This document shows positions 2,831-5,620 of a stretch of 64,000 bases of DNA, piece by piece. The DNA comes from Tsukamurella asaccharolytica (GTDB taxonomy: Bacteria > Actinomycetota > Actinomycetes > Mycobacteriales > Mycobacteriaceae): NCBI RefSeq assembly GCF_007858435.1, contig NZ_VIGW01000002.1, positions 62,001 to 126,000 on the forward strand, given 5' to 3'. Positions within the stretch are counted from its first letter, which is position 1; every line of letters starts with the position of its first letter. The translations under genes were made by a program, and so were the position numbers. The notes under the pieces are model-generated. The model made no database searches, had not been told where the DNA came from, and saw only the letters and a program-made list of their open reading frames with translations.

Positions 2831-3322
2831 ATGGCTGATTCGTCGTTCGACGTCGTGAGCAAGATCGATCGCCAGGAGGTCGCCAACGCCCTCAACCAGG
2901 CTTCGAAGGAGCTCAGCCAGCGGTACGACTTCCGCGGCACGAACACCACCGTCGAGGCGTCGGGCGAGGACAAGATCGTGATCACCTCCGACGCCGAGGA
3001 GCGCGCGAAGGCCGGCCTCGAGGTCTTTCAGGAGAAGCTCATCAAGCGCGGCCTCTCGCTCAAGGCCTTCGACGCCGGCGACCCCGTCGCCTCCGGCAAG
3101 ACGTACAAGATCACCGGCACGCTGGTCGAGGGCATCACCAGCGAGAACGCCAAGAAGATCAGCAAGCTCATCCGCGACGAGGGCCCCAAGTCCGTCAAGG
3201 CGCAGATCCAGGGCGACGAGCTGCGCGTGACCAGCAAGTCGCGCGACGACCTGCAGGCCGTCCAGTCGCTGCTCAAGAACGCCGACCTCGACATCGCGGT
3301 GCAGTTCGTCAACTACCGCTGA
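2831..3322 (+). CDS. YajQ-family nucleotide-binding protein
   Basis: YajQ-family proteins (DUF520) bind nucleotides; members in other bacteria bind cyclic di-GMP and act through a transcription factor. The 163-residue product has the family's full length. It shows the N-terminal [14 protein letters not shown] segment, the central [11 protein letters not shown] strand and the C-terminal [11 protein letters not shown] ending. A GGAGTAGGAG ribosome site precedes the ATG. M. tuberculosis Rv0566c is the likely counterpart and lies near htpX there too. The ligand in actinobacteria is not established, so only the family is firm. Confidence 0.92.
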
Positions 3323-3335
3323 TCCCGGTTCGTTC

Positions 3336-3441
3336 GTCCCCCGCTCCGCGCCGATTCCCCACCCAGAAGTTCCGTCCCCCACCAGACGCCGCCCCTCGGG
3401 TGGGGGCTCGAACGTCCCCCGCTCGACGACCGGTCCCCCAC
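3336..3441. repeat. 106-bp direct repeat, left copy
   Basis: This segment recurs at 4581-4686 in the same orientation with only three substitutions and no gaps. The two copies flank a single gene encoding a DUF559/AbiEi-like protein. Internally it is built from short C-rich motifs (GTCCCCC, TTCCCCAC) spaced 18-41 bases apart. No transposase or terminal inverted repeats accompany it. Confidence 0.85.
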
Positions 3442-3562
3442 TAGACGCCAGCTCTCCCCCCAGCAGAAGCCGCACCGCCGGGTGGGGGCTCGAACGTCCC
3501 CCGCTCGACGACCGGTCCCCCACCACACGTCAGCTCTCCCCAAGCAGAAGCCGACTCCCCCA
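3399..3562. repeat. Two tandem copies of an 82-bp C-rich unit
   Basis: The unit at 3399-3480 is repeated at 3481-3562. The first 43 bases are identical in both units (GGTGGGGGCTCG to CGGTCCCCCAC) and the rest is diverged (CAGCTCTCCCC, AGCAGAAGCCG shared). The 43-base core occurs a third time inside the right 106-bp repeat at 4644-4686. This fills the gap between the YajQ gene and the DUF559 gene. Confidence 0.8.
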
Positions 3563-3578
3563 CCGGGCGCCCGGGGTT

Positions 3579-4547
3579 CTACGCCGAGAGGAGGCCGTGG
3601 CGGGCAAGGGTCGCGGTCAGCTTGTTGCGCAGGCGAACGTCGACGAGCAGGTCGTCCCAGTCCCACCGCACGACCTCGAAGCCGGCATCGACGAACAGCG
3701 CGTGCCGGTCCTTCTCCGCTTCGAGCGCCGCGGCGCGCTCGGCGTCGGTGGTGCCGTACTTGCCCTTGCCGTCGAACTCGCCGATGAGCGATCCCCATTC
3801 GAAGTCGGCGAACACCTGACGTCCGCCGAAGTCGAACGGAGTCTGCAGCCGCGGCACCGGCAGGCCCCACGAGTGGATCAACACCCGTGACCAGGACTCT
3901 CCCGGCGATTCGGCGCAGTCCACGGACATCGCCAGCGCGCGACGGGCTGTCGCCGAACCGCGTCGCCGCCCCAGCCGATCGAGGCACTCCGTCAGCGCCG
4001 CCAGCGACACCGGCGGCGGATCCGTCGGCTTCGGAAACCGCGGCACGAGACGCACCGCGTCGATCGCGGCGACCCCGCGGACCAGGTCTCCGGTCATGGC
4101 GACGTCGATCGGCGTCCGGACCCGGGAGGTCACCCGCACCCCGTCGACCTCCAGGATCTCCTCGGCGACGAGTGGCCGCGGATGGACGTGGATCCCCGGC
4201 CGCCGGCCGCCGCCGTGGACCCGGTCGACGGTGAGATGCACGTCCTTCCGCTCCGGCCGCAGGTACGGAACGTCGAGCAGGACCGTCGCGCTCTCGTGGC
4301 TGAGCACCCCGCTGCACGACCTCGCGGCCGCCAGCACTCGCATTCGGTACAGGTCGGGCGCCGAGTAGTCCGCACCGAGCGCGTAGACGCCCTTCGCCAG
4401 CCAGATCAGCTCGCCCCGGTCCACGGCGCGACTGATCTCCGCGCTGCTCCGACCCGTGGCGAGGAGATAGTTCCTTGTCAGCAGCTCCCCCATGCACCAC
4501 ATTCCATCAGTGCGGGGAGTCGGGTTCGGCTCCGCAGGCCCGTTCAT
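3579..4547 (-). CDS. AbiEi-like N-terminal domain / DUF559 nuclease-fold protein
   Basis: Function unknown. Residues about 20-60 resemble the winged-helix N-terminal domain of AbiEi-type antitoxins (GRSSAEISRAVDRGEL, then AKGVYALG). The C-terminal third is a DUF559 domain with the Vsr/PD-(D/E)xK nuclease fold: Glu217 in SPGESWSR, Asp248, then Glu257 and Lys261 as the ExxxK variant, ending in RWDWDDLL. All expected acidic and lysine positions are present. The listed start gives 322 residues; ATG codons at residues 16 and 19 are equally plausible and no strong ribosome site decides. No partner toxin gene is adjacent. The gene is enclosed by 106-bp direct repeats, which suggests a movable or recombining cassette. 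Confidence 0.75.
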   Translation of the reverse strand: MNGPAEPNPTPRTDGMWCMGELLTRNYLLATGRSSAEISRAVDRGELIWLAKGVYALGADYSAPDLYRMRVLAAARSCSGVLSHESATVLLDVPYLRPERKDVHLTVDRVHGGGRRPGIHVHPRPLVAEEILEVDGVRVTSRVRTPIDVAMTGDLVRGVAAIDAVRLVPRFPKPTDPPPVSLAALTECLDRLGRRRGSATARRALAMSVDCAESPGESWSRVLIHSWGLPVPRLQTPFDFGGRQVFADFEWGSLIGEFDGKGKYGTTDAERAAALEAEKDRHALFVDAGFEVVRWDWDDLLVDVRLRNKLTATLARHGLLSA

Positions 4548-4580
4548 CCACAGGCTACCGGCGAGTACTCACAGCTTTTC

Positions 4581-4686
4581 GTCCCCCGCTCCGCGCCGAT
4601 TCCCCACCCAGAGGTTCCGTCCCCCACCGGACGCCGCACCTCGGGTGGGGGCTCGAACGTCCCCCGCTCGACGACCGGTCCCCCAC
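4581..4686. repeat. 106-bp direct repeat, right copy
   Basis: It matches 3336-3441 at 103 of 106 positions in the same orientation, offset by 1245 bases. It lies just upstream of the start of the DUF559-protein gene and downstream of the htpX-like gene. The three differences are single substitutions. Recombination between the copies would excise the gene and leave one repeat. Confidence 0.85.
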
Positions 4687-4759
4687 CACACGCCGCCGCC
4701 AGTCGCCGAGACCACACGCCGCCGACGGGCCGGCCGACACGCCGCCGCGGACCGTCGGG

Positions 4760-5620
4760 CTACGACGTGAGCGCCTGCAGGCGCGCGACGCGGCGGTCGA
4801 CGCGCGGCTGGGTGCGGAAGATCCGGCCCATGCGGTCGCTGGCGAGGAACGGGCACACCAGCATGGTGTTGGCGTGCACCGCGATCTCGGGCTCGGGCGG
4901 CAGGGGGGCGCGGGCGGCACCGTCGGAAACCTTCTCCAGGGCCCGGGCCAGCGTGGACGGGGCGCCGGTGAGGAGCGCGCCCGCGTGGTCCGCGCGGTAG
5001 TCGACGGTCCGCGACACGCCCAGGCGGATCAGCGCGCCGGCGACCGGGGCGAGCACCGACAGCATGGCGTCGACGACCCGGCTGCGCCGGGCGCCGCCGT
5101 CGCCGAAGCCGAGCAGGTAGCCGAAACCGGCGAAACCACAGATCACGGCGCCGAGAGCCCCGGCGACGGACGCGGTCAGAGTGTCCCGCGAACCGATTCG
5201 TGCGAGCTGGTGCGCCAGGACGGCGCGCAGCTCGTCCTCCGAGAGCAGCTCCTGCAGGCCGACCGTGACGCACACCGCGGCGTGCGCGGGGCCGTGGCCG
5301 GTGGCGAAGGCGGTGGGCGCGGCGGTGGGTGAGACGTAGATCGCGGGCATCGGCAGCCGCGCGGAGGTCGACAGCTCGCGGACCATCCGGAACAGGGCGG
5401 GTTGATGCAGCTCGGAAACGCTGCGCGCGTGCATGGCGCGCAGCGGCAGCGACGGCCCGCTGACGTAGAGGTAGGCGCACACGCCGGCAGCCAGCACGAT
5501 CGAAAGCAGGAAGGCCGTCTGCCCGAAGACCGCGCCGGTCGCCATCAGGAACCCCGCGACCAGCGCCAGCAGCAGCGCGGTGCGGATCTGATTGCCGGTC
5601 CTACTCCCCAGGCCCTGCAC
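4760..5620 (-). CDS. HtpX/M48-family membrane protein with degenerate protease motif
   Basis: The product is 286 residues and resembles HtpX zinc metalloproteases: two hydrophobic segments near residues 13-55, then the peptidase-like domain and further hydrophobic helices at about 150-175 and 185-200. The HExxH zinc motif reads HQLAR at residues 137-141, so the catalytic Glu and the second His are both replaced. The downstream acidic ligand region reads VDYRAD, with Asp207 where Glu is usual. It is therefore probably not a protease. It follows the polyprenyl synthase gene by 11 bases and appears to be in the men operon. The equivalent M. tuberculosis gene, Rv0563, is annotated as a protease. 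Confidence 0.8.
   Translation of the reverse strand: MQGLGSRTGNQIRTALLLALVAGFLMATGAVFGQTAFLLSIVLAAGVCAYLYVSGPSLPLRAMHARSVSELHQPALFRMVRELSTSARLPMPAIYVSPTAAPTAFATGHGPAHAAVCVTVGLQELLSEDELRAVLAHQLARIGSRDTLTASVAGALGAVICGFAGFGYLLGFGDGGARRSRVVDAMLSVLAPVAGALIRLGVSRTVDYRADHAGALLTGAPSTLARALEKVSDGAARAPLPPEPEIAVHANTMLVCPFLASDRMGRIFRTQPRVDRRVARLQALTS

Follow-up and report, generated by a model that had tools for sequence, protein, structure and literature searches.

The stretch of Tsukamurella asaccharolytica DNA that was analyzed, called the window below, is 64,000 nucleotides long and contains one gene enclosed by two arrays of repeated words in the gap between a yajQ gene and an M48 peptidase gene (Table 1). 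The preliminary description of this DNA had reported two direct repeats, differing at only 3 of 106 positions, that bracket exactly one gene. Both parts of that report hold: the repeats are real, 117 nt each and 96% identical, their alignment shows 5 differences in 117 positions with 3 of these within the first ~106, and a single open reading frame (ORF) coding for 322 amino acids lies between them. A third, partial copy (64% identical without gaps, 82% in a gapped match) lies directly beside the left copy and makes the left side a longer array. The word TCCCCC is found at positions 3337, 3375, 3415, 3434, 3455, 3497, 3516 and 3556 of the left array and at 4582, 4620, 4660 and 4679 of the right one. 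The window repeats are in direct orientation, and the gaps have diverged to a degree that leaves insertion junctions unresolvable. The translation start of the gene may lie at 4493, as suggested by a methionine (Met19) that is invariant in the family.

Table 1. Features of the locus, in positions of the window
Feature	Positions	Strand	Basis
DUF520 (YajQ) gene, border of the site	2831..3322	+	neighbor
Left word array	3333..3561	+	full copy 3333-3449, partial copy 3415-3531, TCCCCC words to 3561
Gene for AbiEi-like winged helix plus putative PD-(D/E)XK nuclease	3579..4547	-	ORF, domain search, alignment
Right word array	4578..4694	+	copy of 117 nt that matches the left copy at 96% identity
M48 peptidase gene, other border of the site	4760..5620	-	neighbor

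Flanking repeats were scored by comparing the 500 nt before with the 500 nt after each family gene, and a score of 45 or more was taken as positive. The window gene scored 209 and the 43 other window ORFs (44 in total from a rough caller) did not exceed 38, so that 0 of 43 were positive; 1 of 227 sliding placements within the window reached 59. Pseudo-flanks taken as controls in the same loci as the family genes were positive in 1 case of 142. Chance, or a purely local duplication, was rejected on account of these ORF and pseudo-flank controls and of the same arrangement at unrelated sites. Six neighbors of the window gene were scanned (DUF520, M48 peptidase, polyprenyl synthase and others) and belong to metabolic or housekeeping types. 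No transposase domain came to light in the window protein, in the families that 29 members match or in these six neighbors, in agreement with the earlier observation, and no AbiEii nucleotidyltransferase toxin gene was found among the six.

The protein had been described as an AbiEi-like winged helix joined to a DUF559 nuclease-fold domain with intact acidic and lysine positions. The nearest family model to the window protein is AbiEi_4, with 20.1 bits against a curated cut-off of 25, and no family model reached its curated cut-off for this protein. AbiEi_4 is matched by 18 of 29 family members at E<=0.1 and passed its cut-off in one (L048) of ten members scanned singly, while the AbiEi models of PADLOC match all 29; an AbiEi-like winged helix is consistent with these mostly sub-threshold matches. 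In the C-terminal half, E217, D248, E257, D259 and K263 are invariant in the 29-sequence alignment and form the pattern D-x8-E-x-D-G-x2-K, which we take to be a PD-(D/E)XK nuclease motif of the Vsr/DUF559 type. The label DUF559 itself is weak, with no match above the curated Pfam cut-off: DUF559 was found in one member of 29 (E=0.087; best score 13.1 bits, cut-off 20.6) and MTES_1575 as a weak partial match below cut-off in two of 29. We regard the C-terminal half as a putative PD-(D/E)XK nuclease on the basis of its invariant acidic and lysine residues and these sub-threshold Pfam matches. No solved structure is related by sequence to the family protein, and the Pfam matches of the window protein and of the 29 members include no HUH/Tyr (Y1) transposase. 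The gene is under purifying selection, with dN/dS of 0.12-0.28 in eight pairs of relatives and of 0.23 and 0.27 for the window gene against its orthologs L039 and L040.

The family is widespread in Actinobacteria, often with more than one gene per Tsukamurella genome; relatives outside the first search were taken as the best 80 of 520 confirmed relatives. Searches of phage records and phage protein families gave no family match. Carriage by plasmids or phages was discarded as an explanation, since the only records in a plasmid collection were three from Tsukamurella tyrosinosolvens (NZ_LR134465.1, NZ_LR134451.1 and NZ_LR134463.1) and none were in phages. These three records are listed as plasmids and carry family genes, one of them an 84% relative of the window gene, which suggests that they are pieces of chromosome. 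A 47% relative is encoded by a record titled Acidobacteriaceae (L122, CAJCHX010000568.1); its number is that of contig 568 of G011, a genome that the search places in this genus, and the title is therefore probably a mislabel.

Flanking repeats are a property of the family. They were found around 38 of 46 Tsukamurella family genes (27 of 31 from a first search and 11 of 15 further ones) and, among the best 80 of 520 relatives, around 32 of the 60 named loci outside Tsukamurella, mostly in Rhodococcus, Gordonia, Williamsia and Cryobacterium. The remaining 28 of these 60 other-genus genes have no flanking repeat at a score of 45 or more, which counts against a gene-plus-repeat system. The first 31 include the window gene and one remote partial match (L036) and leave out L034 (the same gene as L033), L037 (a 35-residue match) and L052 (30 nt of upstream flank); L035 and L038 had no match in the first Tsukamurella search. 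Three of the 15 further genes also belong to the named set of 80, in which 3 loci lack a flank and 17 are Tsukamurella loci (16 positive) that largely repeat genes already counted, and only the 60 non-Tsukamurella loci are therefore counted beside the 46. At the 48 named loci that are positive, the median distance is 107.5 nt from the end of the upstream array to the matched start and 7 nt from the stop codon to the beginning of the downstream array. Since many elements are near-palindromic, the direct orientation cannot be told cleanly from the inverted one; nor is direct orientation strict, the inverted alignment outscoring the direct one in L045, L050, L055, L057 and L062.

The repeats of different gene lineages are unrelated in sequence, as far as pairwise scores tell, and private to each lineage: none of 300 different-site pairs share a repeat type, and all 12 pairs of paralogs within a genome score 46 or less even with full 500-nt flanks. 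In a more distant clade of the family (L244, L245, L250, L251 and L252) a compact, AT-richer palindrome around TTCATAACG...CGTTATGAA sits directly at the stop codon and also upstream.

The arrays share a geometry in spite of their different words. Autocorrelation of 46 elements, a set in which only L054 (41) scores under 45, has its peak at lag 19 (z 15.4; next lag 2.9), and the peak stays at lag 19 for the 31 elements from outside Tsukamurella (z 16.4; next 3.6) and for one element from each of 35 sequence clusters (z 15.4; next 2.5). The flanks of the 28 other-genus genes scoring below 45 also peak at lag 19 (z 5.9 and 6.5), as do those of the 24 other-genus genes scoring 38 or less (z 6.7 and 7.6). 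There is no such peak in control flanks or gene bodies (z -2.6, -3.2 and -4.2) or in other intergenic DNA of the window (z -3.0) or of the other loci (z -0.8). In its own genome 36 of 46 spacings between TCCCCC words are 19, 38 or 40 nt (the two window arrays and 12 of 13 dispersed loci), and in Williamsia deligens 65 of 77 spacings between successive words in the same direction are 19 or 20 nt; the dispersed copies of genome G007 peak at lag 21 and then at 19. Lag analysis had replaced the counting of short words, which did little better than shuffles for many elements. These comparisons show an array geometry that is common to the family, as judged from the elements analyzed.

A hairpin was the conserved feature that we favored at first. 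Self-complementarity exceeds that of 30 shuffles in 35 of 46 elements, among which the window element does not count. The dyad of the Williamsia copies is real, because sliding the partner drops pairing below 49%, but paired cells reach 90.6% compared with 90.7% in shuffles and the stem has no excess of covariation. Folding against shuffles is ordinary for the window copies (z -0.01 and -1.21) and strong for five other types (z -3.8 to -9.7). The hairpin was dropped as the conserved feature in view of the Williamsia result and the ordinary folding of the window copies, in spite of the five types that fold well. Words at a fixed spacing appear to fit the conservation of the arrays best, and the stem as such is probably not what is conserved.

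The yajQ-M48 site was followed through 16 genomes of the genus (G000-G015): nine have the gene, five lack it and two hold other DNA. In the last two (G010 and G011; L092 400-4700 and L093) the gap consists of ~2.6 kb of other DNA with long ORFs. All nine gene-bearing sites have flanking repeats above shuffles, including that of G008 (direct 59, inverted 66), in which the family gene is inverted. When each left copy was compared with the nine right copies, its own was the best match in seven of nine genomes, and those of G012 and G003 were closer to a sister species. Protein identity at this site does not follow kinship, as seen in G008 and G009: in G008 the M48 peptidase is 95% and the polyprenyl synthase 96% identical but the family protein 67%, and in G009 the polyprenyl synthase is 89% and the family protein, in two pieces, 78-81% identical. 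The G009 gene (G009:C1:556605-557523; L046; L109, Tsukamurella sp. PLM1) is broken into two frames and has a single in-frame TAG; a sequencing error is possible, the genome being rated 83% complete.

What the repeat type does follow, at a given site, is the identity of the protein. Pairs at the same site share a repeat type in 26 of 26 cases at a protein identity of at least 70%, in 14 of 27 at 58-70% and in none of 25 below 58%. A first correlation between protein identity and flank similarity (Mantel r 0.73) was set aside as confounded by shared neighboring genes, and the comparison was therefore redone with repeats alone in same-site pairs; between pairs at different sites the correlation of identity with repeats is weak (Spearman 0.15). 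In one pair of different type, L059 and L058, the homology of the flanks (82%) ends 34 nt short of the upstream repeat and begins again, at 94% identity, 44 nt past the downstream repeat, with 68% identity in the coding stretch between. Three of six different-type pairs break on both sides, the two besides L059/L058 less close to the repeats; the other three have no downstream boundary because one alignment spans the gene into the downstream flank. These comparisons show a block of gene plus repeats that differs between species as a unit at fixed sites and whose boundaries are sharp only in part of the pairs.

A gap close to the window locus could be retrieved together with both of its flanks from 15 genomes of Tsukamurella, of which 14 were examined. 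Seven have no clear array (best score 21-41; those of G004 and G001 are maybe remnants) and seven have one, of GCACCC type in three (G012, G002 and G013) and of TCCCCC type in four. Against a type that has its gene in the same genome, the seven clear arrays score 42-98 with shuffled maxima of 24-34, a scoring that left out G010 and G011. Six of the seven have their best match in the flank of a gene from another species and not from their own genome, which counts against the system that we propose. In a gap of G009 near 567000 (L216), a TCCCCC array stands with a second palindrome that by eye resembles the type of another species' gene, L066. The comparison of the 14 genomes shows independent gains of unrelated arrays in one and the same gap.

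The repeat of the window is also dispersed in its own genome, with at least 13 further places at E<1e-3 (40 of 57 candidates were scored), and no dispersed copy of this type lies within 10 kb of other family matches there. The preliminary description had counted a repeat spread widely with no link to DUF559 genes as evidence against its reading, and dispersal in the own genome alone seems to present exactly that case; the comparison across genes reverses it, for the repeat is widespread but the types tested track their own gene lineage. It had also proposed a search of related genomes for the repeat with and without the gene. Scoring up to 40 candidates per genome, we found the window type at least 17 times in G000, 7 in G002, 2 in G003, 13 in G005, 11 in G008, 17 in G009, 6 in G012, 2 in G014 and 13 in G015, the nine genomes with the gene at the site, and at least 0, 2, 0, 0, 0, 0 and 1 times in the seven without it, that is, at least 2-17 copies compared with 0-2. 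The related type of G005 has, under the same limit and in the same order, at least 9, 3, 2, 22, 12, 12, 7, 1 and 11 copies with the gene and at least 0, 0, 1, 0, 0, 0 and 2 without it. A pattern count allowing two mismatches gave 14-66 with the gene and 2-16 without, over a background of 2-8. Kinship confounds the link between array number and gene, and arrays are few in G003 and G014 although both carry the gene.

Other types repeat this picture. The type around the G007 gene L065 occupies 9 places in G007 (two of which flank the gene) and none in 15 other Tsukamurella genomes; that of Williamsia deligens has 14 places in its own genome (two flanking the gene) and 0 or 1 weak match in each of 7 others, and that of Gordonia soli 5 places (two flanking the gene) and none in 8 others. 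The CCCTAGCGGG type has 6-13 matches in the six genomes with its gene and, among those without it, 7 in G013, 4 in G015, 3 in G008, 1 in G007 and 0 in six; arrays that persist in this way speak against a strict rule, and we read the copies in G013, G015 and G008 as relics. Thirty-one solo copies from three genomes lie between convergent genes (15), tandem genes (8) or divergent genes (1), with 7 flagged as coding by a rough ORF caller. In G003 two near-identical TCCCCC arrays 624 bp apart (G003:C1:1376250-1376979; L098 1251-1980) enclose DNA with no family match together with an unrelated palindrome, showing that array pairs can bracket other DNA.

Taken together, the flanking repeats, the private types and their tracking of protein identity strongly support, across genera, the earlier suggestion that gene and repeat belong together, and on these comparisons gene lineage and array type very probably go hand in hand. 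The idea of a gene cassette that moves with the repeat survives in part: the block does differ between species as a unit, but jumping by excision between the repeats does not agree with dispersed copies that are solo arrays. Cassette excision by recombination between repeats was rejected as the main process because the dispersed copies are solo and the one gap studied in detail has arrays and no gene. At the yajQ site, G006 has a solo array with a score of 80 when compared with the type of L047, the gene of that genome, and G001 has a remnant array without cognate gene, the sole case that looks like a possible deletion remnant.

We propose, with a probability of about 0.6, a two-part system in which an AbiEi-like/putative PD-(D/E)XK protein binds, cuts and spreads its own lineage-specific word arrays. 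The first part would be a lone protein, half AbiEi-like winged helix and half putative nuclease, and the second its own family of arrays, with a word of 5-8 bp every 19-20 bp, often turned around a central dyad. Typically, one array stands ~100 nt upstream of the matched gene start and another just a few nt past the stop codon, with solo copies in other intergenic gaps. The protein would bind its word as a multimer that reads sites two helical turns apart, each protein lineage reading a different word; such binding is what co-inheritance and the shared geometry lead us to infer. The nuclease would then cut at or between bound arrays and repair of the break would copy array DNA, so that flanking copies are kept alike and solo arrays spread in trans; RAYT proteins are believed to spread REP/REPIN elements in a similar way, with another chemistry. 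The shared 19-nt geometry, with words specific to each lineage, agrees with the earlier suggestion that the repeat is acted on by the nuclease; binding and cutting would be the conjectural steps of that reading. Spread in trans with the help of the protein we consider slightly more probable than the contrary; copying driven by nuclease cuts and repair we hold more tentatively, at something short of even odds. Also tentative, and rather less probable than the two-part system itself, is the wider view of a transposase-free class of self-propagating repeats, in which winged-helix/PD-(D/E)XK lineages would evolve new words on a fixed 19-bp geometry and spread and homogenize their arrays by cutting and repair-copying.

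The array upstream of the gene could instead be the operator of an AbiEi-type autorepressor and the solo arrays its regulon, with no movement of DNA. AbiEi proteins, in the accessible portion of PMC7319586, repress their own promoters through 23-bp inverted repeats that stand 3-13 bp apart, four of which are bound by Rv2827c; the PADLOC matches in 29 of 29 members agree with this, and words about two helical turns apart would suit a multimeric repressor. A regulator of this kind accounts poorly for a second array so close after the stop codon (median gap 7 nt, 48 loci) and for solo copies that, in the sample of 31 given above, are mostly in the wrong place for promoter control, and it leaves the invariant nuclease-like motif and the joint turnover of gene and both arrays unexplained; we consider it unlikely. 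That the same gaps receive unrelated arrays, and that an array pair can bracket other DNA in G003, would also be expected of ordinary MITE- or REP-like arrays moved by an unrelated transposase, with the family genes as bystanders at hot spots. Bystander genes would not lead one to expect that same-site repeat type follows protein identity (26 of 26 compared with 0 of 25), that the 19-nt period is the same across genera or that the 43 other window ORFs lack such flanks, and no transposase was found among the six scanned neighbors, which makes this explanation quite improbable.

Regular arrays resemble iterons or centromere-like sites. From this likeness, from the 5-14 places per genome of three types and from the purifying selection on the gene one could argue that the arrays are protein-bound sites for chromosome organization, replication or segregation, kept by selection, and that their turnover is a drift of specificity. 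We give such a host function little credence, since it is common within the genus for a genome to lack a given gene together with its arrays, a single genome can contain unrelated types, and the presence of arrays differs between species at the gap examined. A role in defense, with a nuclease that spares or is held by the chromosomal arrays and attacks DNA without, or with, the word, has in its favor the turnover of repeat types between lineages and the PADLOC matches in all 29 members, though those models describe antitoxins. Phage protein families and phage records contain no match and the six scanned neighbors are metabolic or housekeeping in type, and defense seems to us the most improbable of the readings considered. 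The two-part system remains our preferred reading. If it is true, many solitary actinobacterial genes for an "AbiEi antitoxin domain" would be engines of private repeat families and not antitoxins, and proteins whose sole annotation is AbiEi antitoxin or hypothetical would gain a function; they would also form a natural set of DNA-reading proteins that share one geometry and read many words, from which changes in winged-helix specificity could be learned.

Parts of the proposed system have counterparts elsewhere. The C-terminal half is like Vsr/DUF559/MTES_1575-type PD-(D/E)XK proteins in its D-x8-E-x-D-G-x2-K pattern and in its weak, partial matches to MTES_1575 and DUF559 below the cut-offs, and it is presumably linked to the EDxHD homing endonucleases. 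A homing endonuclease carries its own gene into a cognate site; what is dispersed here, by contrast, are solo arrays that lack the gene. Type IV toxin-antitoxin AbiEi proteins resemble the family in that its N-terminal half matches AbiEi models, and AbiEi, as far as the available text of PMC7319586 goes, binds multiple inverted repeats near its gene. The family differs in its extra nuclease-like C-terminal half, in the lack of AbiEii among the scanned window neighbors and in arrays that also stand downstream and dispersed, with a period of ~19 bp in place of those 23-bp repeats and their spacers. By analogy, the binding of inverted repeats at promoters by AbiEi may be the ancestral habit behind this system.

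REP and RAYT are the best-known case of a bacterial dispersed repeat with its own dedicated protein. RAYT genes, in the accessible text of PMC3116915 and PMC3733652, are single, distinctive copies flanked by their own repeat type, and REP repeats are dispersed between the genes of the same genome, possibly with more than one type per genome. The family gene shares this arrangement: its own repeat type stands on both sides of it and is also scattered between genes elsewhere in that genome. RAYT is a HUH/Tyr transposase, a match that the family protein lacks; the Williamsia arrays conserve words at 19-20 nt, and their stem has no covariation excess though the dyad is real; and copy numbers are lower here, with 5-14 places for three types compared with the over 1,000 REPs that the accessible part of PMC3116915 gives for P. 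fluorescens SBW25. The open-licence literature (subscription papers not covered), in its accessible text, held no description tying AbiEi, DUF559 or such nucleases to dispersed repeats, and for this reason we judge the system to be new. The comparison suggests a protein-plus-repeat system that is undescribed and works most like a REPtron, and which, present in several actinobacterial genera, would be a second and unrelated solution beside REP/RAYT.
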